Shown here in pieces: positions 2,596 through 62,455 of a DNA stretch of 64,000 nt. The DNA is taken from contig CM067529.1 of assembly GCA_034509925.1 (NCBI GenBank), positions 6,921,501-6,985,500 of the forward strand. The letters are read 5' to 3'. The position numbers were made by a program, and so were the translations under genes. The notes under the pieces are model-generated. The model was not told the origin of the DNA. It did no database searches and saw nothing but the letters and a program-made list of their open reading frames with translations. Source of the stretch: Hirudinaria manillensis (Eukaryota; Annelida; Clitellata; Hirudinida; Hirudinidae). The number at the start of each line of letters is the position of its first letter. Position 1 is the first letter of the stretch.

Positions 2596-5500
2596 ATGAA
2601 AGTTTTTTCGAGGTGTAAAAGAATAGTTGGTAATGCAATAGGAATACTGATCAATACCATTGCTTCAAATTATTCAAGAATTTCCTGTGATGAGCGAGCA
2701 GTTGGTCTGAGCAATACCTCTCTTTCACAAACCATGAATTCAAAAAATAACTTTGGGCAATGTCATGCTAGTGCCAGTCAAAGGACAAGGAATATGTCGG
2801 GTTCCCAAAATATCGATGTTTATTATAAGTTTTTTACAGTCGAACGATTTAAAGTTTTAGCTGTGATGATAATCTTGGTTTCTGCTTGTTACCACGTCAT
2901 TCTGCATCTCAAAAGCGGTAGGATACTTTCAGTTAGGTTTGTTTAAAATAATCTGTATTGATCAAATATTTGTTTTAAGGCCATAATACCTGCAAATGGT
3001 TGCTTACTGATGGTCGATTTCAGGGCTATAATGAATGGCAACCCCATGGGTGCATGATGCACAAGTACAGTAAGAGGTGATCTCAACATTTGTAATAATA
3101 GTTTTTTGGTAATAGCATGTGCCTATAGCTCTACTGTAGCTTTCCAATTGCTCTCTGGATTTAGTTGTTTTTGCACATAGGATATTTGTCTTAATGTCTG
3201 CTTCACTGTAAGTATGCATCTAATAGTTAATTCTTCCTGCAAATGTAATTTTTGCCTAGGATATGTGAATATCAAATACACTTGGATCTTTGTTGTTAAA
3301 AGACAACTTTAATTATTTAAAACAGAAAGTAAAATCAATCAAAATTTCATCATCTATTTCTCCCTTAGAATATTGGAACTTAGAATACGTTACATAATAT
3401 TAATTTATGCCATAAAACATAATATGACCTAAGGTGATAATGCAAAATACATCTAAGATTTGAGGTAACTGTTAAAAGTTCTGAGCAAATGCAATTCATG
3501 GATTTGTCCTGTTGTGTAATAGTATGCATTTGTATGTGTGCCTCTTCGTAAGAATAGGGACTATCCCTTGCCCAACCAAAAATCAATTGACAGATTCTTA
3601 TGCTGTTCTAAAAGTCGTTTCTTTTAAGTGACTCATACAACTGCATGAACTACATATCCTACTGGGGCGGGAGGAATCACTATGTTTTTGTCGGTGACTC
3701 CCGTGTCCGGCAACTTTTTCTTGAATTTGTTGGACTTCTCAGCAAGGAATCGATTAAGTCGAGCAAATATCATGGAAAATTAAGCTACAGTGATGCCAAG
3801 ACTAATGTCTTAGTGGTTAGATCAAATTTTATCAAATAATGTGGAAAGCTTATATGCAATGAAAAATTTGCTTGTTATTATTTAACATTTAAATTGTTAA
3901 AGGAATTCTTCTGGGTACCATATGTTGATAATTCAATGAGAGAAATATTAGATTCTTGGACGGATTCTAGTCCCAGGCTTATCATCATCGGGTCAGCTTT
4001 GGTATGGCTATGAATGCTTTGATTGAATTCATTTGAATTTCACGACCGTGATTATAAATTTTGGCCTTCATAATTTTTTAAAAATGAATGTCATTCATTA
4101 AAATTCAATGTTGAGTTACATATATGAGACATTCAGCATGTTTATTTGCACAAGCTTAATGTTTGGTAGAATATTGATAAATATTTTTCATAACATTATT
4201 AAATTACGGCTAATAATTATTAGTGGACTATAAAGCTCAATAATGGATCGGAGGATGTCATCCCCTCTTTCAAAAGTTTGATCCTTTTTCCCAATTTGAT
4301 AATTCAATGTTTATCCATTCTTATCAATGATCCCATTGGTCAGACAATATCACGAGTATGAAATCCATATTTTCAAAATACGAAGACTCATCAAAAATCG
4401 TTTGGATGCTTCAAGGTATTTCATGTGTTTCAAAATGCTAAGTTTTTTCAAATGTTGCTGTGCTTATGTTGGACATATAAATGACAGATCATGTGGTAGA
4501 AGCTAGACTGTTTGCCAACAAGTCCATGATTACAAACAGGCAGATTGATCTTTATAACAGAGCAACCATTGAAAGCCTGTTAGTAAATTTCCTTCTTTAG
4601 CGAGATTTCGGAAAAAACTGAACCCTCCTTTTTGAAATGTCAACAATATTATCACAATTACATTATTATTTGTAATTATCTCAGAATTTCTAGCAGAGTG
4701 CAAATCTGGTCATCATCTGTCTTGATTGGTCAAGGATTCATGGGGAGAGATTTCATAAGTGAGTGACCATCAACAGATGTTTGAGTTAAATAAATTGAAT
4801 TTGAGCTGAGGTAGATCTTAGTGTCCGACTAATGTCCTTTTAGTATTTAGGAGCCTTTATTGGACTTTAGGCATAATTAATCCCTGAGAGTGTTTGTGTT
4901 ATGAATTATTTAAATTAGAATGCCAGAATTACAGACATTTTTCTTTACCTGAAGTGCATTTCAGAGAGAGAGCAAACATCAAACAAAGATTTGGTGACAA
5001 CAGCCACAAATATGGCAAAGAAGTCTGATTCAGAACACTTTTCTCAGACACCTTCAGAATTGGTTGAGGAGGAAGAAGAGGAGGAGTTAGGAGATGGCTT
5101 GCATCTTTCCCAAGAAGCTCTTGGTTGGGACGTCCAAGTGCTACTGAACATGGTCTGCAACGATTTCATGAACTTTGACGACGGCAGCTGTTGCACCGCC
5201 CCGGAAAGTCCGACGCCTCTTCAGATGGTTCTTGCCACGTTTTTTGCAATCTCTTTCTTCGTGGCATTCACGATGACGCTCTGCAAACACTTGATTCATT
5301 TGAGTAGAAAGGTGAACTCAATAAAACGGAGCAACAGGACCATATCGAGCGGCTTTGGTCACTTCGTCGCATCTCACAAGAATTTCAACAACAAAGATCT
5401 CGAAATCAAAGAAGTCAGAGAGTCCGTTCCGTGTCACGAGTCGAACTCTCAGACGAAAAGGTTTCCAGAAAGTTGCAATCTCGTCGTAGATTCGTTTGCG

Positions 5501-8282
5501 TCGCTCGATCCTCAATGCAGAAGTGTTGACGGCCAGTCGAGTTGCGATACTCAGAAAGTGCCAAGCACGTTTAAGAATTCAGTTGATTTACTTAATCAAA
5601 ATAAAGGCAAACAAGAACAAGTAGGAGGGTCATTTCATTTAATGAACTGCCAGGGCAAAAAGTTGCAAGATCATAAGTGCCTTGGAGATGCCACACTAAA
5701 AAATGATTGTGAAGTCCAATACCATTCTCTTGATGCCTCTGCACAGTTCGATCCCCCGTCGAGTCCCGTTCAAAATGGCTCCTCCTATCGACCGTTGTGC
5801 GAAGAAAACCAAGCGGACTTCTACTCGGTCGTTTGCTGCATTTCCAAGCTAGGCATCATTCTTTCATATTTCTTTGTTTGTGATAGGTGATTGCTTTGCA
5901 AATTTCAATGTTAGTTAAATAAATAAAAACTGGTTTTGAATGTTTTCCACAGGACAACATTTTTCATGAAAGAAAATAAATATTATACTCACGTGAACTT
6001 CTTTTTGCCCTTCACTTATCTCATGGTTCTCGGACTTTTCTTCACCGAGAAAACTCCACACGTGATTTGTGCTTAATTTGTATACAAATTAAAGCTGACT
6101 AAAACTGGCAAATTAACCTTCAGATGGAAGTTTTGAACAGAAATCAGACTGATGAATGGAAAGGATGGATGCAAATTGTCATTCTCATTTACCATCTGAC
6201 AGGAGCAAGCAAGGTCCTCAGCATTTACATGCAAATCCGGTTAGGTGTTCTTAGCAACTCATCTGGCTCGAATGCTTAAACTACTGATTAACTGTTTGAT
6301 AATAAATCAGAGTCATGGCATCAGCTTATCTTTTCCTGTCAGCATATGGACATTTCACATATTTTTTCAACAAGGATGAATTTTCTTTGCACAGGCTTTG
6401 CACTGTTGGTTTCATCATTTGGTGATGTTAGATTAAACTTAATTTAGATTAATAGTGATTTATTATACCAGATAAAACCAAAAAAAACATTTAGCCAGTT
6501 ATGAACGTGATTATGATACTAAAGTAATTAAACAGGTGATCTTTCGACTCAATTTCCTCGTGACTTTGCTGTGCTTAGCGATGAACCGACCATATCAATT
6601 TTATAACTTTATTCCTCTTGTTACATTCTGGTTTGTCATAATTTTCCTTGTCATGGCAATCCCGTTGAGGCTTTCTTCGGCAAAGACCAACAGTGAGTTG
6701 TCACGAACGTAATTGTTTGCATATTATTTTGTAAACAAAAGCGATTAATTATCTTTACTAAATCTTGACCAGTCATGAGCTAGTCTAAGCCAAATTTGAC
6801 TGAAAATGAGGCTTTTTTCTTATTTTTCAATTTAATTTAACATATTCACAAATATATTTCCAATTTATCTAAGTTGAATAATAGTAACTCTTAGTCAAGA
6901 GTACAGTTCCTTAATATTTTATGCTTTTTTTGAGCATTTAATTATTTCTTATTACCGGAAATATAAGGCAGAAATATATTAGGCTGATATTTTCCATTCA
7001 GATAAACTGGTAGCATATTGGTGGCTAACAATGAAGATAATTGCTTTGATCGTATCTATCACCCTCCTGTACTCTTATGAGGTGAATGCTGACCATTTCA
7101 ATTTCCACCTTTGTTGAGCAATTTGTATAATAACAAATAACAAATAATAAATGTGCAACTGCTGTGTTCTATTTTACAGGTGCTTTTTGATAAGATTTTC
7201 CTGTCGTATTTGTTGAAGCCTTTGTTTGTGTCTTCTGACGAGTCGATACGAGACTGGCGCTTCAGGTGGAGTGTGGACAGATATGTGAGTTAATGTTCAA
7301 GCTTATGACTATTGACACAGTTATGCAATGCCCGAGTCATACGGCCAACATTTATTTTCAAGAGTTCCATTTATGGATTAGTCTTCTCCTTGGTTCTCAT
7401 CCTTATAAAGAAGATTGTCGATGATTCCAAAGGAACCAACCTCAGCTCTTCAAGGTTAATCACACTGGCATCAATGGCCTTCTCTTCTTGCGGTCTCCTG
7501 GTTAGTTGAATTATACCGAACGTTCTGTAATAAATTAGTCTGTCCTCAATTAAAGTTAACGCATTCTTTCAAGTGCTATGCAGTCTTCACTAGTCTGTGC
7601 CAAAATAAGGACCAGTGTAATGAAACGCATTCCTACATTGCCTTTCTTCCCGTTAGTGAAACTGGTATCTCTTATATAAGGATGAATATATATGTACATA
7701 TATATGTGACATTTTCAATTGCTTAATGATTATCAATCTGATTTGGAATGATTTTTATATTCAGATTCTCTGTTACATAGTCTTAAGAAATACTTTGGGA
7801 TGCGTTAGAAAGAAATTCAGTGCCTTTTTTGCCTGGTTTGGCCAAATATCCCTCGAGGTTTTATTGTTTATGATTACTATTTTGATTAAATGTGCTCAAT
7901 TTGAGATTTATTATTATTATTTATGTAATTATTTAATGACTGACATATACTTAGGATTTCATTCAAGTCTTAGCATTACCCAAGCCTCTTAACTTTTGGT
8001 AATTTTTTTATTAATTGGATATATATTGTCTTTCAGCTATTTATAGCTCAGTACCACATATGGCTGGCTGCTGACACTCACGGAATACTGGTCCTCATTC
8101 CTTCTTATCCAGTCCTCAACATCATCATGACGAGCTTCGTATTTGTCTGTGTCGCTCACGAACTCAAAAAAATCACAAACTTTCTTTTACCCCTATTTGT
8201 TCCTCCCTCAAAATGTCTTCTGCTACGTAATATTCTGCTAGTTTTGGCATTCACTGCAATCAGACACTTTTTGCCATTTTGA
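2596..8282 (+). CDS. CASD1: Sialate O-acetyltransferase CASD1 (SGNH/GDSL domain plus multipass membrane domain)
   Basis: A Golgi multipass enzyme that O-acetylates sialic acids. Nineteen exons join with phase kept throughout: 2596-2917, 2980-3076, 3629-3815, 3903-4001, 4224-4275, 4344-4415, 4488-4578, 4685-4758, 4965-5886, 5953-6061, 6124-6239, 6311-6404, 6536-6692, 7002-7081, 7180-7284, 7363-7500, 7574-7651, 7765-7857 and 8037-8282 (TGA). This gives about 1,043 residues; human CASD1 has about 800. The catalytic Ser lies in [10 protein letters not shown] (exon 3). The Asp and His lie in GDGLH (exon 9), so the triad is intact. Membrane motifs [39 protein letters not shown] and [14 protein letters not shown] are strongly conserved. 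The extra length is mostly in exon 9: an acidic stretch before the DGLH motif and a hydrophilic loop of about 170 residues after the first membrane segment of the C-terminal half. The start is the first in-frame ATG. The 3' end converges on SLX9. Confidence 0.95.
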
Positions 8283-8960: not shown

Positions 8961-10618
8961 TTAATTAGTATCCATTTTGTTCTTAAGATGTTCAGTGATT
9001 GTGTTGAAAGGATCTGCTTTGAATGTCGGATGATTGAGCACAGTCTGGAAAAACTCGACTCCTTCCAACCTGCAAAATCAAAACATATTTGAATTAATTT
9101 CCATTCTAGCTTCAGAACTCAACTCCAGTATTACATCTGTGCTTGTAATTTCATTTTCTTCGGCACGCTTCGAGGCTTCGTCTCCCTAAAAACGGATGGG
9201 AACATGCATCATTAATTTCTAATAAAATAAGCATTATATTTTTCATAAGTTCAAAACTCAACTGTTTCCTTTTTGCAATTTTTGAGTTGTTGATCCAGTC
9301 AACCACTGGCAAGGCATCAATAAGAGGTTTCATATCCCCTGTAACTGGAGTCTGCTGTCTTTTTTCTGTATCTTTAATTTCTTTCAGGTGAGTTTCAATC
9401 ACTCCAACCTCTTTCAAGGATAACAAGATGTTATTCTTTACAATAATAATAATAAATATGCATAAATTTAAGTGAAATGATTTCATGCCATACTTACTTT
9501 TCCTCCATACTTCATGTTTTAGCTTTTGTATATCTTTCTTCTTGAGCTTTAGTCCTTTCAATGATTTACTGGTAACAAAGCTTCTGGTATCAAACTCTAA
9601 CTCTTTCACTGATTCTCCACTTGTGGTGCCTAATTGGCTTTTTACAGCAGTTTCAATGTCGTTTGTCAGCATTTGTTCATCAATGTCCAGTTTGTCAAAA
9701 ATTGACTTTGATTTCATGGATATTGTTGACCTTCCACTGACTGATGCAGAGTAATGTCTTGGTGCCTGCAGTTCAACATATTTATTACTGGTCTGGCAGC
9801 CTATGATTATTGCATCAATAACAGATTAGAGTAGAGGGAATTATGCAAAAATTATAAAAGAGACTTGTCAATTATTTCAATAAACTGGAAGATATTGAAA
9901 TTTTAATTCTGAGAAGTCACAGAGAAAGAAATAGCTGATGCTTCTAAAGCGTTATCTCAAGCTAAGGCATTTAATGATAGTAATTATTATTTAATAATAA
10001 TAGTTTACATGGCAATGCATCAGGGGTGCCTTAGATTTCCATTCTGAACTCTATCTCTCCTGAAAAAGGTTTTCAGTTGGTGCTTAAAGAGCCATTATGC
10101 TGGAGGTAACCCTTTTCAGATGAATGTATGGGTGCAGTATATGGGAGACTGATTGATGAAGGATTTAACTAGTGGATATGAATGATGAAGGTGATCAGAC
10201 ATGCTGATAGAGCTAAGGTGGATTTGACAATGTGATATATTTGATTCATGTTCTTGATTGGCTTTTGTATGCACATACATCAGTTTACTTGTCCATGCAT
10301 CTTTGTCAGTCACTACGCAAAGTTCCGACCATTTAAAAAATTTCTCCACTATAATTTAAAAAAATTGTAAAATCCCTATGAAAGTTCTGAGAGTTCGTGG
10401 ATCCAGGAAGAATAACACTTAGAGAGGTTTTCAAACGTGTTATGGAGTTTGATATGCTGAGCAAAGTTAACGTAACCCTGTGATATATGTCAAAAATAAT
10501 GAATGGGTGCGCTTACCGTTGATGGACAAACAGACATGGTCTCCGTCTTTGAATCAGCCAAAAAAGCGGCATTTCTCTTTGCATTGAGTTTTTGTCGCGG
10601 TGTTTTAAACTTGCCCAT
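8961..10618 (-). CDS. SLX9: Ribosome biogenesis protein SLX9 homologue (FAM207A)
   Basis: A small basic nucleolar protein needed for maturation and export of the pre-40S ribosomal subunit. Five minus-strand exons join in phase: 10517-10618, 9498-9765, 9263-9410, 9135-9185 and 8961-9069 (TAA), giving 225 residues, close to the family's usual length. The N-terminus MGKFKTPRQKLNAKR matches the conserved basic start of SLX9. The middle has KKKDIQKLKHEVW, a charged helix and the signature GDMKPLIDALP (family GDLHPLRDALP). The C-terminus FFQTVLNHPTFKADPF matches FQELLASPAYRASP. The start is fixed by that conserved N-terminus. It shares a very short promoter with the divergent TPGS1 gene. Confidence 0.9.
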
Positions 10619-52797: not shown

Positions 52798-55678
52798 ATT
52801 TTGAATGAATTTGGAGACGTTCAAAGAAGCCTATGTCTGATGAATAAAAGAAAATCATTACCAGGATACCACATGTTTATAAAAGCCTATCTTGATGGCA
52901 TAATTGATGAAATTGTTAACGATTCGTCGAAACATACCCCCAAACAAAAGAAGGATCAACAGAGAGGAACATCAGGAAAAGTCCCGAAAGGATCGAAGAC
53001 ATTGAAATTGCCTAACATTGCTTTTGAACCACAAAATTCAAATCTTCAATTAATTAAATCTGCCGTGAATATATGGAATAGGTATTATCTCAGATATTTC
53101 GGAAATAAACACACTTTAATTAATTACCCTAAGTGATTTTTCAAACGGTGAATATTTATAAAAATTCGCATTTATTTTGCAGATTAAGCGAAAAAAAGAA
53201 AGCTTACTGGATGACCAAGAGACATGGAGGATCCTGTGTTAGTGGCATTCGAAGAGTTTTCACTAATTCAAAAGCGTCAACAAAGTTAACGAAATTACAG
53301 GGCAATAGAGAGAAGGGTTGCGACAAGTTAAATCGTAAAGCAGAACCGAAAAGGGCTGAAACAAGATCCAGAAATCCGATTCGCAATGAATCGGCAAAAG
53401 GGAATATAAAAGACTTTAACAATAATTCACAGAAAGTTAAGACGACGAAACAAAGAAGAAGGAATTTTAAAAGTAACTCTGAACATTCGCCACGTTTTCC
53501 AAGCATACGGTCAGCAAGTCGTAAATCAAAAGCAGCTCTCGCTGGACAAAATAAGCAGCCAAAAAGGGACGTCAAAATACTTCCAGAATTCCCGTTGCAG
53601 GAGATGAAACTTTCTCGTAATAAAGGATCCACCAACTCAATCAGAACGCCAAGCAAACAGAAGGGCTTGGCTTCACCACCGGCGAATGATTTGAAAAAAG
53701 CCGGCGGAAACAAACGAAAAAGAAAGATTTCAGCCAAGAACAGACAAGTCAAAACGATCACGGATAGCAAAAAATTCAAGGAGAATTTCGGAAAAAATAA
53801 TCGCAAGAATATAAAAGCCAATGTTAAGCTGTGCTTGAAAAAGTTTTGTGCCAAACGACCACCTGGGTCTCCAATTGATGAAAATATTCCCGTCGATAGA
53901 CTCGAAAATAAGTCTCGGAAAAAGGCTAAGAGGAAGTACAACTCTAGAGTTAAGACCTCTAAAAAGAGAAGATCTTTAAACAATAATTGCAATAAATCAA
54001 CCAATAATAATCACAATAACAATAATAATAGCAACTTTATGCATAAAGAAGTATATGTAAATGTTAAGTCAGATTTTTTGTATGGACCTGAGCATTGCAA
54101 TCATTTGTCCTTTCCAAAATATTTTAGAGGAAGGGAGCCAAGATACACACAAGGAGCAAGGTGACATTTTCGCTAAAAGGATCACTTCTATAAAAAAAAA
54201 AACAGTCCTCTAAAAAAATAAAATGAAACTACGAAATTCAATTTAACATTTAACGATTAATCCAATGAAGAAAATTCATTTTTGATAGAATTGTTTTTAA
54301 CTAGATTATTGATTACTCCTCTAAAAATTCTTGGAAATTGAAACCCATTATGGGGTTTAGCCACTAAATTCCCCATCGTTGTGTCCTGACAAAAAAACGT
54401 GTTATCACAGCGTCTTAGTGAATCTGGGACCTGGTGCCACTTTAGACACCTGAAATATAATATTATATAAAGATAATTAGTGCCACTATAAAATGATATA
54501 TCAGACAATGCATTTCCACGTGAAATAAAATTAGCCATTGACAAGATGATTCGAAACGGAAAATGGTATGCTCGTCAGATGCTTAATATTACAAAATATT
54601 ATGTTGTCACTCTATAATTACATAAAAATGTGGGCACAGATTATTGAACGCCATCAAAAGCCGAAGGCGTGTTTATGAGATAAAGTAACGCGACGATTCT
54701 AGAGCGGTTTTGTTTCGAGATCGCATTGAGGCAGGTGACCGTCTTGGTACATTTTCGTCAGTTTACAACTTTAGCCTTTAAATTATTTAAAAAGTATAAC
54801 TCTGCAATTTGAATTCGGTGACGTTCATGTTCTGTTTGCTCATATGCGGACTTATTTGATGGAATAGCCATCTAATTCTTTTAATTAAGAAAGGCTAAAG
54901 TGATATAAATGTAAATTTTACGAATATTTGATATCACTGGTTGCAAACACTTCCAGTTTATGATTCTTCAGCAACTGCTTGACCCATTTAGTTCAATTAG
55001 GTGTGATAACTGTCATTATGTAGATTCACGCCGAACATGTCTAGGTTGTTGAAACATTCCAATGTACTGATTAGTATTTCACAAATTTTTTTATCATAAG
55101 ACTTGTTAGTAACAAATTATGTAGTATTATAGGTTGTAATACAATATAATGATCATTTCATTTTTAGGATTTCATTTCCAAAGGCCGACATGAGCATTGC
55201 ATGCAACTTTCACTTGGACCCATCAAAACAGGTCCACAGACCTATCCCTCCCAATGTCAAAATATTTCCAGATTTCCCAGTGCAGGAGATAAAAATTTCT
55301 CATAACAAAGGATCCACCAACTCAATCAGAACGCCAAGCATACAGGAGGGCTTGCCTTCACCATCGATGAATGATTTTCAAAATGTTGGTGGCCTGCAGC
55401 AGAAAGATGGTTTGGATGCAAACAGTTTGGAGAATGCAGTTCCTAGAGTAGAACAGGATAATAATTTCGATTTTGAGCGAGTTGGATCAACTTACAGACA
55501 ACAACAAGGATGTGTTAGTAAACAATGATTGTGTTTCAACTTTGGATTTCTGACTATTTGCATGAAAAATTGAATCTATGCTAGAAGCAGTTCAACATCG
55601 GCCAAAGGACGTGCCTTGGTGAATCACTGGAAGGACAATATGGAGAAGCAAGGGAAGGATATGCTAGAGGAGGAGATG
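52798..55678 (+). CDS. Lysine/arginine-rich protein with an internally duplicated segment; possible N-terminus of the KEN gene
   Basis: Exons that join in phase: 52798-53081, 53183-54160 and 55168-55513, then probably 55588-55678. The second exon encodes about 325 residues of extremely basic sequence with many KRK, KKK and RKS runs and an Asn-rich tract. It should be disordered, nucleic-acid binding and probably nuclear. A block in exon 2 (LPEFPLQEMKLSRNKGSTNS and onward) is repeated in exon 3 (FPDFPVQEIKISHNKGSTNS). Exon 1 is better ordered (LPGYHMFIKAYLDGIIDEIV). No family was recognised and the true start is not identified. The last exon is open in two frames; the one that keeps phase with 57966 reads QFNIGQRTCLGESLEGQYGE. 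If the 55513 donor is not used, the protein stops at TGA 55526-55528. Confidence 0.55.
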
Positions 55679-56047: not shown

Positions 56048-57440
56048 GTTTTTTTTTTTTTGAGGTTTATGAGTTTATTCCTTCATTAACACAAAAACTG
56101 AAAAGAGCAGCAAACAAAATAAAACTCTAAGGGCCAGTCTTAAGGAAGCACATGCTTCCGCTAGTAGACTGACCCATGAAACACAATAAGCAGAAAAATT
56201 AACACAAAAAATTAGGAATGATGGTATATAATTAAATGGTTCCATTAATCAGAAGGTGCATGTTTTTAAACAATAAATATAGTACAATAACATGTAGTTA
56301 AATTAATCCGATAGAGTTAATAATAAAATGTTTTAATGCTTTCTTATAAGCATAAAGATTAGAAATGTTGGTAATATTAAGCGGAACAGCAGAGTAAATT
56401 TTTGGTCCCATACAGACAATAGAACGAGAGCCAGTGACAGATTTAGCAAAAGCCGGTCTATAATTATTAGACGTTCGAGCAGAGTATTTGTGTAAGGAGG
56501 ATATTTTTGAAAACAAGCTATCGAAAAGACGAGGCAGCATGTGATGATCTACTTTATACATGAGAATGGCCAAATGGAAATTATTAATTTGATGAATTTT
56601 AAGTATGTTTAAATTTGTAAATGCATAATCGGTATGAGAATTATATGGCAAACAAAGGGCAACACGTAAGAATTTTTTCTGAAGATTAAGTAAGGGTTTT
56701 AAGCAAGTTGAGTAGTTACAAGCCCAAATTAAATTACAATAGTTTAAATATGGATAGATAAATGAGTAATACAATGTAATTACTGTTTTTATATTTATAT
56801 AACGACGTATGCGATAAATTAAGCCAATATTTTTGGAGATCTTTGCCGCTATGTACTGAATATGTTGTTTGAATGACAGATGCTGGTCAATAATGACGCC
56901 GAGAAATCTACAAGATTCAACCCTAGATATAGAAGAATTACTAATATAAATGGTATGATCGTCCAAGACGAATTTTTTCCTTGCTTTATGAAAAAACATG
57001 TATACTGTTTTTTTAGTGTTGAGAGACAACAGGTTTGCCCTAAACCATTCTGCCAACTTCTCAAGTTCAGTATTCATGGTAGAGTAGAGTTCAGTAATAT
57101 TATTTCCAGACAGAAAAACAGTTGTGTCGTCTGCGAACAGTAAACACTCAAGACGATCCGAGGAGTTACACAAGTCATTGATATAGATCAGAAACAATAG
57201 TGGCCCCAAGACTGAACCCTGTGGAACACCCAGGTTAACAGCTCCCAACGACGATGTTTGATTTGCAAATGAGACCATCTGACTCCGGTTTTTTAAATAA
57301 CTTTCAAACCAAGAAAAACATCTGCCTCGGATACCATAATGATGAAGTTTTTCCAGGAGAATATCATGATTGACTGTATCAAAGGCCTTGGCAAGATCCA
57401 GAAACACTCCAATAGTAGATTGACCTTGGTCCAGAGAGAA
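56048..57440 (-). mobile_element. 5'-truncated non-LTR retrotransposon with intact partial reverse transcriptase frame
   Basis: The minus-strand frame is open from 57440 to the stop at 56298 (about 380 codons) and encodes the second half of a LINE reverse transcriptase. Motifs include GVFLDLAKAFDTVNHDIL, GVPQGSVLGPLLFLIYINDL, the catalytic FADDT and CRFLGVIIDQHLSFKQHI. Upstream coding (endonuclease and RT N-terminus) is missing, as in typical 5' truncation during target-primed reverse transcription. The 3' end carries a poly-A tail, seen as a T run at about 56049-56060. With no stops across the RT, the insertion is young. It sits antisense in the intron between exons 55678 and 57966. No clear target-site duplication was found. 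It cannot move by itself. Confidence 0.9.
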
Positions 57441-57965
57441 TTACATTCCACAGCAGCTTAATTGGGACACTGGAAGCTGACAGATTATGTTTGTTGTAGT
57501 GCTCTTGTGTGCTTGTGATGAGTTGTAACTGTATTGTTTGTGATGTTTGTTGTGCAAGTAAGAAAGTATTATTTAGAGATGTTGATGCTTTTATGTATCT
57601 CCTTCAGATATGAAATATTTATTGTGGGTCCTTAAATATTTCTAAATAAGCAAGTTATTAATTTATGCAAGATTAACATTCCCTATAACATTAGTGGATT
57701 ACTTGAAGCATAATGATGCTGAATACACTTTAAAATGTTTTTGAATGTTTGCATTATTTTAAAGTTTGCATATAAAGTTTCAATTTCAATTCACATTATC
57801 TGATTGCTACAATATGCAAATGTCAAAGATATTTGGAGGAGCATGAAAATGTTTGAATTCTTGACTCTTGTGTGTCATTATCAATGTGTTAAATGTGTTC
57901 ATTCCACTATGAAACATTTAATCAACTTTCGTTCTGCTTTTTTCATGTTTATAATATCAATTCAG

Positions 57966-60900
57966 GTCATTACAAGGGCATGTGTAATGCATCTGGCATT
58001 GTAAGCCCCATCAACTCCACAAACAAGAATTTGATGCCAATACAACATCTAGAACAGAAAAAGTTGTTCAAGATTCACATCTATGATATCTTCAAGTTTT
58101 TTGGCAGATCATCTAATTTATGGATGGTCATGTAAGTGTTATTTACAAAGTTCATTTAAGATAGAAGTATCAACAATTATTGTAATAAGATTGTTATTTT
58201 AAGGATGATCATCATGATGTTATGCCCAGTGGTAAAGGCTACAAAGGAAAATGAGGATACGCTGTTAGTGGTCAAGACTGCTATCGTGATATCACTTTTG
58301 GGCGGGGTTAGGCATCCATTTGTTTCTGATATTGAATCAAAAGCAATTAACAAATTAAAATTTGGCCTTTTCAGCTTGTTGCCTTTTCAGCTTGTTGCAT
58401 TGACAAGAACTCTTGTGAGTGTTAATTACATTGCATTAATTATAGAGCAAAACATTTAATTAGCATTTATAATGGGATTTATTGGAGCTGATGTTTGAAA
58501 ATTTTGAAATAGCAAAATATTTGTTGGAATGTTCTTGTGTTGAATGGTATAATTTATAAAGGAAGTGCAGGGGAATCCATTTCCATATTTAATCCATTAT
58601 TTATTAAGGATTGTATTTATAATTTTAGAATTTAATATTTTAGGATTTCTTTTGTATGACTTTTTTTTAATCACTAGCAAATGCTGTGGAAATAGAAGAG
58701 CAGGAAGATGAATTGGATTCTTCAGTACAAGTTCTGGACAAAATCCAAGATGGCCGAACATCTGAACTTTTTAAGCAAGTATCTCTATATATCTGATTAT
58801 ATTGAACAGCAACCAAAAATTTTTTTAATTTTTACAAACAAAATATTTTTAAAAAACTACCCCAATATTCAATATTTTTATTTAATCAATTTACTCATGC
58901 CAAATATACAAAAACAAACTCTATGATTTACATCATTGCCAAATCTTAATTAAAACACCCACGTTTTTGTAGAGGATCCTTTTTTGGAAAAGCAGTAATT
59001 ATAAGAAAAATTTTACCTGCTAATAAAGATAGAGCAGACAGAGAAGTGGATATCTTAACAAAAACAGAAAATGCGAATTTACATAGCACAGTGAAAGTTA
59101 TTATGGACGTAAGTATTTAATAAAAGCAGTTGAGTAATATTAATTAAACAATGATGAGATTATTTCAGGTTCGTCTAAGCCGGAGTATTTACTTAGTTTA
59201 TCCACATAATGGACATAATTTATCAAGTTTCATGCATGGAAAGGATGACATAACTCTTATTAGAATTGGACATGACATCGTCAAAGCGGTTGCCGAGCTG
59301 CATATGCTAGAAATAAGTAAGTATGTTTATCCTGATATTTATGGACAAAAATTTATAATTATTATTAAACTATTATGAGAAGCATTGATTATAATCATTC
59401 TGATATTGTGATTCTGATACTGTGCAGCTAAATGTATCAGCGATGCTATCACTATAATTTCAATATTTTGACCTTGCTGACTTTTAGTAAGAACTTTTAA
59501 AAAGTTGGATTTGATGTTTCAGTTCATGGAGATTTGAATCCAGACCACATCCTTGTTAAGGATTCTGACTTTGGACCCATTCTTACAATTTCCAACATGA
59601 GAAGAAGCCATAATGTCACTGAAGAGTCATGCAAAATTCATCAAGCAAGTGATGTCTGGGCTTCTCCTGCTGTGAGGAAAGGGAAATGGGTTGGTGTTTT
59701 TATACCTTTTTAGTTTTGTATTTGTCTGTTTTTCTATATTTTTAAGTCACTTATTTATTTACATGAGCATTTGCAAATTTATTTTATCAGACATTCTAAT
59801 GAAAAACTTAAATTCAGGCCACAAAAAGAGACGACCTTTGGAGCTTGGGCCTGATACTATCCTATCTTTGGAGTGATGATGGTCAAATACATGAAAATAA
59901 TTTTTCCAACATCTTGAAACCTGGTATGAAATGGCATGGAAGCCATTTACTAGAAAAGCTCATATCCTGGCAACAAGCTGATGCAAAGACCATTTACATT
60001 CATCCCATCTTTTGGTATCAAGGCATCTTACCTTTCTATTTTGAGGTGAGCTAAATGCTATTTCACATCATCATGATGACATTTTAAGAATCAGTTATTA
60101 ACCTAAATGTTCTTTGTTCATAAATACAGTGTTTACAGAAATTCTTATGGAGAACCAAAAGTGAAATTTCAAGTTTAACTTCACATAGTCAATCATGGAT
60201 AAATATTGCAAGCAAGGAAACATTTTTTGGAGGTTGTTATAAAAATTTCTGAGCTTTTCTCAAACTTTAACCCTTTTGTGGATTAACTAAAAAAAATTTA
60301 TCCAGTTTCTTTCTATTAAAATGGATTTTAACATCCTTTCTCATATTTATATTCTAGTAATTTTAGACACAATAATTGTAACACTTGATTGGCAGATATT
60401 AGTGGTTGCCTTGATTTATATTTTCCTGATATTTGTATCCATGAGATCCATGAAATTTGTATTTCTTCCATGTTTTGTCCAAAATATTCTAAATCTGTTG
60501 CCACCTTATGTCTAAATGTGCCTTATCTCAATAAGATAATATGCACCAATATCTCAATATGCACCTGCTCTCATGTTAATGGCTCATTATATGGTATGTG
60601 GCATTTGCAGCTGATTGTTTATGTTTTTCACTTTGTTGCTCCAGTACAAGTTCAGATACTGGTTGCTTTCAATTTATATACCTAACAGCTGTAGCTCTTA
60701 GCTATATATTAACTTGCAGCTAACATAGCTACATGCTATGACTTAACTAAATTTTTTTAAGATATGCAGAATTATCCTAAGAAGGCAAAAAGGATTCTGG
60801 TCAATGACAAAAAGGAAAAACCAAATCAAACAAAACCAAAGAAAAAGATAAATTCAAAGCGAAAAAGACCAAATCAGAAAATGGCACATCAAGAAAGACA

Positions 60901-61647
60901 AATTCAGATAAGACCAGATAAAATTACACATCAAGAAAAGCAGATAAAAAGACCAGATAAAATTACACATCAAGAAAAGCAGATAAAAAGTCCAGATAAA
61001 ATTACACATCAAGAAAAGCAGATAAAAAGACCAGATAAAATTACACATCAAGAAAAGCAGATAAAAAGTCCAGATAAAATTACACATCAAGAAAAGCAAA
61101 ATAATGAAAAGCAGGAAAAGGGTAACTATGGTGATAATCCCAAGCATTTTATACGATTCCTGAGAAATCTGGTAAGTTAAGATGTTCTTAAATAAATAAA
61201 TTTTTTGTATTTATAACCATGTGTCCATTAGCTTAGCATGGCCTGGGCTGCTCTTTGAAGTGTGTTGCAAAATTTCTTAATAAATATGACTAACAATAGC
61301 TTGTAATGTGAACCATTTCTTTAAATGTTTCTTAATTTGGATGTTTCTTAATTATGTGGATGTCTGAAACCCACAATAGCAAGTTGCTAGAATGTTTCCA
61401 GTAGAGAATTTAGTTTGGAAACTTTTGTTTTGACCATGATTGAAACTTTTTACAGAATGTCCATGCTGGTCAGATCAAAAATACTAGAGCATTCCAAAAT
61501 CCAAGATTTTTCCAAGATTGGGTGGTAAAGAATGGTGCCCTCAGAGAATTAGTCCACTATATTTTTGATGCATGCAATGAATATGTTGATGAACAGTTCT
61601 GGCATGAATTCAGCAGATATTTTGGATCAAATCTAATCTTTAAATAA
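57966..61647 (+). CDS. Divergent IRE1/RNase L-like protein: pseudokinase plus KEN ribonuclease domain with repeat insertion
   Basis: Exons: 57966-58131, 58204-58414, about 58680-58774 (acceptor uncertain), 58973-59108, 59169-59316, 59523-59689, 59818-60045, 60130-60232, 60762-61171 and 61456-61647 (TAA). The first two encode a hydrophobic segment (LWMVMMIIMMLCPVV) and a helical region unlike known domains. The kinase N-lobe LFKGSFFGKAVIIRKILP and ADREVDIL align with IRE1 YRGMFDNRDVAVKRILP and ADREVQLL. The catalytic loop reads HGDLNPDHIL instead of HRDLKPxNIL, and the DFG site reads ISNM. The C-lobe KRDDLWSLGLILSYL and YIHPIFWY match RNase L and IRE1. In the KEN domain, W in SQSWINIA and R and H in FLRNLNVH align with RNase L catalytic-site residues W632, R667 and H672. 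FWHEFSRYFGSNLI matches the final helix. The third intron uses a GC donor (AA|GCAAGT). The product is probably a ligand- or dimer-switched RNase with a non-catalytic kinase; its role is unknown. Confidence 0.8.
60911..61099 (+). repeat. 39-bp coding minisatellite inside the KEN domain
   Basis: Five in-frame copies starting at 60911, 60950, 60989, 61028 and 61067 encode RPDKITHQEKQIK with position 1 reading R, R, S, R, S; the last copy is truncated after HQEKQ. The copies are nearly identical at the DNA level, and copies 2-3 repeat as copies 4-5, which indicates a recent 78-bp duplication. A degenerate copy (MAHQERQIQI) precedes the array. Confidence 0.95.
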
Positions 61648-61924
61648 GTGCTTTCATAGTGAGTGATAATCTATCTGTCTTTTTTTGTGTTTATTTATTC
61701 ATTCAATGGAAGAATGAAAATGAACTTTTGAGCATCATCCTCAGAGAAATAGGCAAATTTATGTATGTTTTTGGTTGTCTCAATTTCGAAAATTATGAAA
61801 AAATTTAAATTTAAAATAATTCAGGTAACAGGTTAATAATAAGAAGTACGAATGATAAAGCCGAAGTTGGGACTTCTAAAGTGATTAGTTTTTCTTATAA
61901 TCTCGAAAATATAAGATGGGCGCG

Positions 61925-62455
61925 AGACTCCATGTCGTTTTTGGCATCGTGAACAAAATAGGTGGAATTGCAAGAAAATTTAAAAAATAGAAATTGTAGA
62001 GGATAGTTTCATGATTCTTGTCATGTATTCACTTTTAAAATTTATTCAGTGGAATTGCTGAGTTTCGAGTTCGAAGTTGACTCAACACGCAGCGGAAGGG
62101 TCCATGTTGTTTTTGGCATCGTGAACAAAATAGGTGGATTTGCAAGAAAATGTAAACGAGCATAATTGTAGAGGATAGTTTTATGATTCGTTTGATGTAT
62201 TAATTTTTAAATTTGGTTCAGTGGAACTGCTGCGTTTGGAGTTAGAATAATCGCCGGCAAGCGATTTTTCCTAAACTTTTAACTGGGTCATTTCTTCCGA
62301 CTCCATGTCGTTTTTGGCATCGTGAACGAAACAGGCGGAGTTGCAAGAAAATTTAAAAAATAGAAATTGTAGAGGATAGTTTCATGGTTCTTGTGATGTA
62401 TTAATTTTTAAATTTTGTTCTGTGGAACTGCTGCGTTTGGAGGTTTCCTGAGTTA
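61925..62455. repeat. Three imperfect tandem copies of a 170-200 bp unit
   Basis: Units align from ccatgtcgtttttggcatcg at 61930, ccatgttgtttttggcatcg at 62102 and ccatgtcgtttttggcatcg at 62303. Each is followed by a gtgaac, aggtgga/aggcgga, ttgcaagaaaat, tgtagaggatagtt and ggaa(t/c)tgctg series. The spacing is 172 and 201 bases. The units have no coding frame and lie between the KEN gene's stop and the next gene's start. Confidence 0.9.

Follow-up and report, generated by a model that had tools for sequence, protein, structure and literature searches.

Among the KEN ribonucleases of animals, two are well studied, IRE1 and RNase L, and each has its own trigger. The KEN domain has been placed within the HEPN superfamily, which is marked by an Rx4-6H motif, and lineage-specific expansions of KEN proteins are described in Oikopleura and in monocots (PMC3710099). 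In RNase L, the pseudokinase is reported to mediate dimerization (PMC4730318), and within the KEN domain a helix-loop element is described whose positively charged loop engages RNA, with R1039 and H1061 of the yeast protein paired with R651 and H672 of RNase L (PMC8104961). An IRE1 paralog that lacks the luminal sensor is described in Arabidopsis, where IRE1C occurs beside normal IRE1 genes and is more diverged than its sisters; in the same account, Arabidopsis IRE1B from which the luminal domain has been deleted becomes active under a treatment that increases saturated lipid (PMC6788458). As for the distribution of RNase L, a survey covering four sponges and eight further lower metazoans reports finding OAS without RNase L (PMC6307210), and both OAS and RNase L are reported to be absent in Aplysia (PMC9334734). 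Among the titles listed by a literature search that named annelids, none concerned a gene of the kind described here.

The window that we analyzed is a stretch of 64,000 nucleotides from Hirudinaria manillensis (C4:6921501-6985500), and the genome searched comprised 148 Mb in 23 contigs. Ten plus-strand exons in the window, between 57966 and 61647, splice into an open multi-exon frame of 619 residues, read from 57968, whose stop codon at 61647 coincides with the end coordinate given by an earlier reading of the same DNA made from the sequence alone (hereafter, the sequence-only reading). With a probability of about 0.62, we regard this gene as a diverged IRE1 paralog, encoding an IRE1-family pseudokinase joined to an Rx4H KEN domain, with no sensor module found and a lysine-rich insert in a KEN loop; dimerization, RNA cutting and docking by the loop are predictions of this reading. 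At least three KEN genes were found in the genome: IRE1 itself, near C2:12149181, which scores about 398 bits against human IRE1 and has luminal-type frames; the window gene; and a paralog on contig C8 (C8:4804793-4806052).

How does the window gene compare with the described systems? IRE1 (ERN1), including the copy in this genome, has the same kinase-KEN order, and 7/7 introns from exon 3 on lie in the same place and phase. The window gene differs from IRE1 in that no luminal domain was found, the kinase motifs are lost, the RNase motif is of the RNL type and a lysine-rich array occupies the KEN loop. RNase L resembles the window gene in its pseudokinase plus KEN domain, its RNLxxH motif and its Tyr-His spacing, and is the best PDB match of a profile built from the two paralogs. 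However, no ankyrin repeats were found in the window gene, and so there is no sign of 2-5A binding; its DFG site is also more degenerate than what we take to be the RNase L sequence. Arabidopsis IRE1C is likewise a sensor-less IRE1 paralog next to normal IRE1, but it is a plant gene of independent origin, and its description as given mentions no KEN-loop array (PMC6788458). The KEN proteins of Oikopleura and monocots also depart from the IRE1 architecture while carrying Rx4-6H, but those expansions, as described, are of KEN domains separate from a kinase (PMC3710099), whereas the window gene retains its kinase domain. What is new here is that the kinase motifs are mostly lost, Rx4H is kept, one active-site Asp is changed and the putative docking loop is expanded into paralog-specific lysine-rich repeats.

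The kinase part was recognized directly. Pfam Pkinase matches the spliced protein (42.8 bits, E=5.5e-11), and blastp aligns it with the genome's own IRE1 (E=2e-15, 64/248 identical). Exon 3 (58678-58774; all exons are on the plus strand) encodes an acidic linker and the start of the kinase N-lobe, and exon 4 (58973-59108), which lies within the blastp alignment, continues the N-lobe; exon 5 (59169-59316) runs up to the catalytic loop, exon 6 (59523-59689) carries that loop and the DFG site, both degenerate, and exon 7 (59818-60045), in which 37/75 residues are identical to the C8 copy, encodes the C-lobe and ends in HPIFW...FE. The set of motifs expected of an active kinase (the VAVK Lys, HRD and DFG) was not found in the window protein: VAVK is replaced by VIIR, HRDLKPxN by HGDLNPDH and DFG by NMR, the last assignment following the phmmer alignments, whereas blastp pairs a literal DFG ten residues earlier. 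With its motifs largely lost, the window kinase is a putative pseudokinase.

The same region carries the intron positions that connect the gene to IRE1. All four introns that fall inside the blastp alignment with own IRE1, among the nine in the window gene, coincide with it in both residue and phase, the borders in own IRE1 having been placed by hand. These are the introns that follow exon 3 (a GC-AG intron, phase 2), exon 4 (phase 0), exon 5 (phase 1) and exon 6 (phase 0), and the rough chance of such agreement is 3e-9 for exact coincidence, or 3e-7 if one residue of slack is allowed. Three further introns downstream agree with own IRE1 by anchor motifs rather than by alignment. In both genes the first lies ten residues past the W of HPxFW, in phase 0 (in the window gene, after the E that ends exon 7), the second lies at a G-D junction in phase 1, after exon 8, and the third, in phase 0, splits the RNase motif three codons counted from its Arg. 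Own IRE1 has one extra border, after MRPLRR. This comparison covers the seven introns from exon 3 on.

Is the C terminus a KEN domain? Exon 8 (60130-60232; 12/34 residues identical to the C8 copy) would begin it, exon 9 (60762-61171) carries the lysine-rich insert at the helix-loop position followed by the KEN helix with the RNL of the RNase motif, and exon 10 (61456-61647; 28/63 identical to the C8 copy) supplies the catalytic His of RNLNVH (Rx4H), the C-terminal part of the domain and the stop. Pfam Ribonuc_2-5A did not match the window protein, whether it was searched whole, after removal of its repeats or as its last 80 residues alone. A phmmer search of the PDB with the window KEN region matched three sequences, none of them a KEN chain, the top match being designed armadillo repeats (whole-sequence E=0.00021; single stretches, i-Evalue >=180). 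Comparison with two IRE1 KEN domains by hhalign aligned 22 columns, which are those of the RNase motif, at a probability of 3.8, and a three-way mafft alignment failed to align the two RNase motifs. The HEPN motif Rx4-6H itself is in the right place, and a kinase fold directly precedes the domain, as indicated by the Pkinase match together with the introns, the C8 paralog and the profile.

The evidence for KEN ancestry comes instead through the C8 paralog, which, with the repeats cut out, is 47% identical to the window KEN region. In Pfam the repeat-trimmed C8 paralog gave a single family at E<=10, which was Ribonuc_2-5A (E=0.0027; 18.3 bits, below the cut-off of 23.3). Searched against the PDB, a profile of the two paralogs placed RNase L first (E=0.0026, or an i-Evalue of 0.057 for the best domain alone; next chain 0.45), and a longer version of the profile gave RNase L at E=0.0063 and the next chain at 0.25. 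Over 188 ungapped codons of the window gene and the C8 copy, 89 residues are identical, with ps=0.765, a value close to saturation, and pn=0.334; so large a difference was reached in 0/1000 column shuffles and is absent in the other two frames. By this test, which is pairwise and does not tell which copy was constrained or how recently, the window exons show purifying selection.

Because the introns common to own IRE1, the Ribonuc_2-5A match of the C8 paralog, the RNase L match of the profile and the signature of purifying selection all bear on the same gene, we assign it to the IRE1 family, as a putative diverged pseudokinase-RNase rather than a new family. The sequence-only reading had proposed kinase-like and KEN exons in the IRE1/RNase L order, which is borne out, on the Pkinase match for the kinase and on the introns, the C8 paralog and the profile for KEN; its view that the protein is distinct from the genome's ordinary IRE1 is also supported. 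It had named Pfam Pkinase and Ribonuc_2-5A as the searches to make, and counted the lack of a KEN-family hit against itself: the window protein matched the former and not the latter. Its proposal of a new architecture is not supported if a new family is meant, since the introns are those of IRE1 and a luminal-less kinase-KEN protein is already described in Arabidopsis IRE1C (PMC6788458). The degenerate kinase motifs, the expansion of the KEN loop into repeats and the second paralog go beyond what that reading noted.

Both paralogs retain Tyr, Arg-Asn and His in the spacing of RNase L, with 17 residues from Tyr to His, as opposed to 18 in the two IRE1s. Eleven residues before the His, an Asp is present in four of four compared sequences (own IRE1, human IRE1, RNase L 4o1o and the C8 copy) and a His in the window copy only. 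As this Asp, which we presume to be important in RNase L, is replaced, RNase activity of the window protein is not assured. It is possible, if unlikely, that the KEN domain is catalytically dead, cutting no RNA and acting instead as a decoy or regulator that binds IRE1 or RNA, as the Asp replacement in a protein that has already lost its kinase motifs might suggest; however, the Arg, Asn, His and Tyr are retained, and the motif block, with 12/16 residues identical to the C8 copy, is the best conserved of the four blocks compared.

Just upstream of the RNase motif, the lysine-rich insert of the window gene is built on a 39-bp tandem repeat (60910-61098, plus strand; RPDKITHQEKQIK type unit; 4.8 copies; 98% matches and no indels by TRF), and the C8 paralog has at the same place an insert made of a different unit, of 48 bp in 5.5 copies. 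Both unit lengths are multiples of three. The window insert has 36 K+R versus 16 D+E in 121 residues and the C8 insert 30 K+R versus 20 D+E in 110. The position that corresponds to R651 and R1039 lies 21-22 residues before the catalytic His, and both inserts end about there. By analogy with the helix-loop element, the inserts may represent an expanded RNA-docking loop.

Upstream of the kinase, exon 1 (57966-58131), an open frame with an AG acceptor and a GTAAGT donor, encodes a helical region and the start of a hydrophobic stretch, and exon 2 (58204-58418), whose 3′ border is uncertain, is weakly hydrophobic; peak hydropathy is 1.71, versus 3.34 for the transmembrane segment of own IRE1. The two exons have no significant similarity to the IRE1 transmembrane exon (best E 10) and are present once in the genome. 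A hypothetical first coding exon at 57518-57557 (plus strand; 13 Cys-rich codons; donor GTAAGA) is one of 23 candidates listed from 57441 to 57950 that run in phase from ATG to GT. A LINE-type reverse transcriptase on the minus strand (56298-57440; RVT_1, E=3.3e-27) lies just upstream of the gene.

When six luminal and transmembrane excerpts of own IRE1 were searched in the window with tblastn, the best E was 0.22; this is a weak test, since nine kinase and KEN exons of own IRE1, used as a control, likewise missed this known relative (best E 0.18). Ankyrin repeats were not found, and eight plus-strand ORFs at 52.0-58.5 kb, the region covered by that search, had no Pfam match above cut-off; spliced exons from upstream of the LINE are a possible further source. 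These results agree with the sequence-only reading, which saw neither an IRE1 luminal sensor nor RNase L ankyrin repeats. Its suggestion that a very basic protein at 52.8-55.7 kb might form the upstream part of the gene did not find support. This two-exon frame (52840-54164 and 55133-55528, plus strand) has no Pfam match, and by inspection no in-phase splice was seen from it to the KEN gene: the part at 52.8-54.2 kb was rejected as the N terminus because it runs into a stop codon at 54164, and the part at 55.1-55.5 kb because its apparent donor ends in phase 0 and exon 1 needs phase 1. The start of the basic frame, judged by eye, resembles an HMG box, and apart from a partial copy 1-2 kb downstream, at 55.2 kb (55% identical over 60 residues), it has no other match in the genome.

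We find it rather improbable that the gene is an ordinary IRE1, or an RNase L with ankyrin repeats, and that its sensor exons are located elsewhere or are too diverged to be recognized. The typical acceptor before exon 1 does imply upstream sequence, the LINE reverse transcriptase may have displaced such sequence and the tblastn control fell short, but neither the six excerpts nor the eight ORFs gave a trace of either sensor, and an IRE1 with luminal-type frames is already present in this genome.

Of the nine introns, eight have GT-AG borders and the remaining one has GC-AG. The one awkward place in the model is the junction of exons 2 and 3, where exon 2 is closed by a weak donor, a consensus-like donor at 58415 not being in phase with exon 3; the model may lack a mini-exon here, and the gap holds seven in-phase candidates. 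Since in own IRE1, by reading, the phases of the transmembrane exon and the first kinase exon disagree in the same way, we do not take the mismatch as damage. In the C8 copy, no match to the kinase N-lobe was found, and the donor of exon 7 has AT in place of GT and is followed three codons on by a stop; this copy is unlikely to function as a KEN gene today. That the window gene is itself on the way to becoming a pseudogene, as this broken sister and the exon 2-3 junction could hint, is quite improbable given 619 codons free of stops, its regular splice sites, the mismatch common to own IRE1 and purifying selection on the frame, the last being pairwise and silent as to copy and recency.

The surroundings of the two paralogs are also related. 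Downstream of the window gene, from 62881, is a RAB3GAP1-like gene, whose joined exons match the Rab3GAP catalytic subunit 8vyb (E=2.5e-26, residues 196-330 of 354) and have no Pfam match. On C8, around 4803700-4809750, the KEN paralog lies between a 5′ fragment of RAB3GAP1-like sequence, before it, and a further copy, after it. Because RAB3GAP1-like sequence thus flanks the KEN copy on C8 too, the KEN gene and its neighbor seem to have been duplicated together and later rearranged. Between the two genes in the window, at about 61900-62450 on the plus strand, three similar stretches of ~200 bases lie in a row and, by eye, share 'tttttggcatcgtgaac' and its neighbors. Ordinary neighbor genes elsewhere in the window include exons that match Cas1_AcylT (4919-5890, plus strand; E=9.8e-11) and SLX9 (9151-9825, minus strand; E=5.1e-06).

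Two observations concern mitochondrial sequence. The mitochondrial contig, C23, of 15581 bases, has its genes on one strand, reads with code 5 and is N in the middle; cox1 was named by search, and the gene order, with the other names as we presume them to be, is cox1, cox2, cox3, nad6, cob, nad4, nad1, nad3, nad2, which would be an arrangement of annelid type. A full-length cox1 match that scores equally to C23 lies inside contig C9, at C9:3026446-3027786, and reflects either a recent insertion of mitochondrial DNA or a join made in assembly.

If the window gene is a diverged IRE1 paralog, how might it act? The pseudokinase could serve as a dimerization platform, as in RNase L, so that when two protomers meet the KEN pair would cut RNA, with the long basic loop docking the substrate. 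The least certain steps are that the weak hydrophobic segment may hold the protein at a membrane and that what brings the protomers together may be neither unfolded protein nor 2-5A but crowding, the state of the lipids or a partner. A more speculative suggestion, which we regard as doubtful, is that invertebrates have here their own version of RNase L, a pseudokinase-KEN endoribonuclease no longer tied to either of the known triggers. Its docking loop would have been built anew, separately in each of the two paralogs, from lysine-rich repeats that change fast, and might serve for recognition in an RNA-level defense. Since OAS is reported without RNase L in the survey of sponges and other lower metazoans (PMC6307210), a diverged KEN effector like this one could take the place of the missing enzyme.

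A KEN gene of this sort can drop below Pfam detection, so that diverged genes may be overlooked in surveys from which RNase L-like genes are reported to be absent in invertebrates. As a kinase-dead relative that sits beside a normal IRE1, and for which no sensor was found, the window gene would provide a natural test of control by the kinase and the N terminus. It could also be used to test whether the helix-loop element redirects the choice of RNA.
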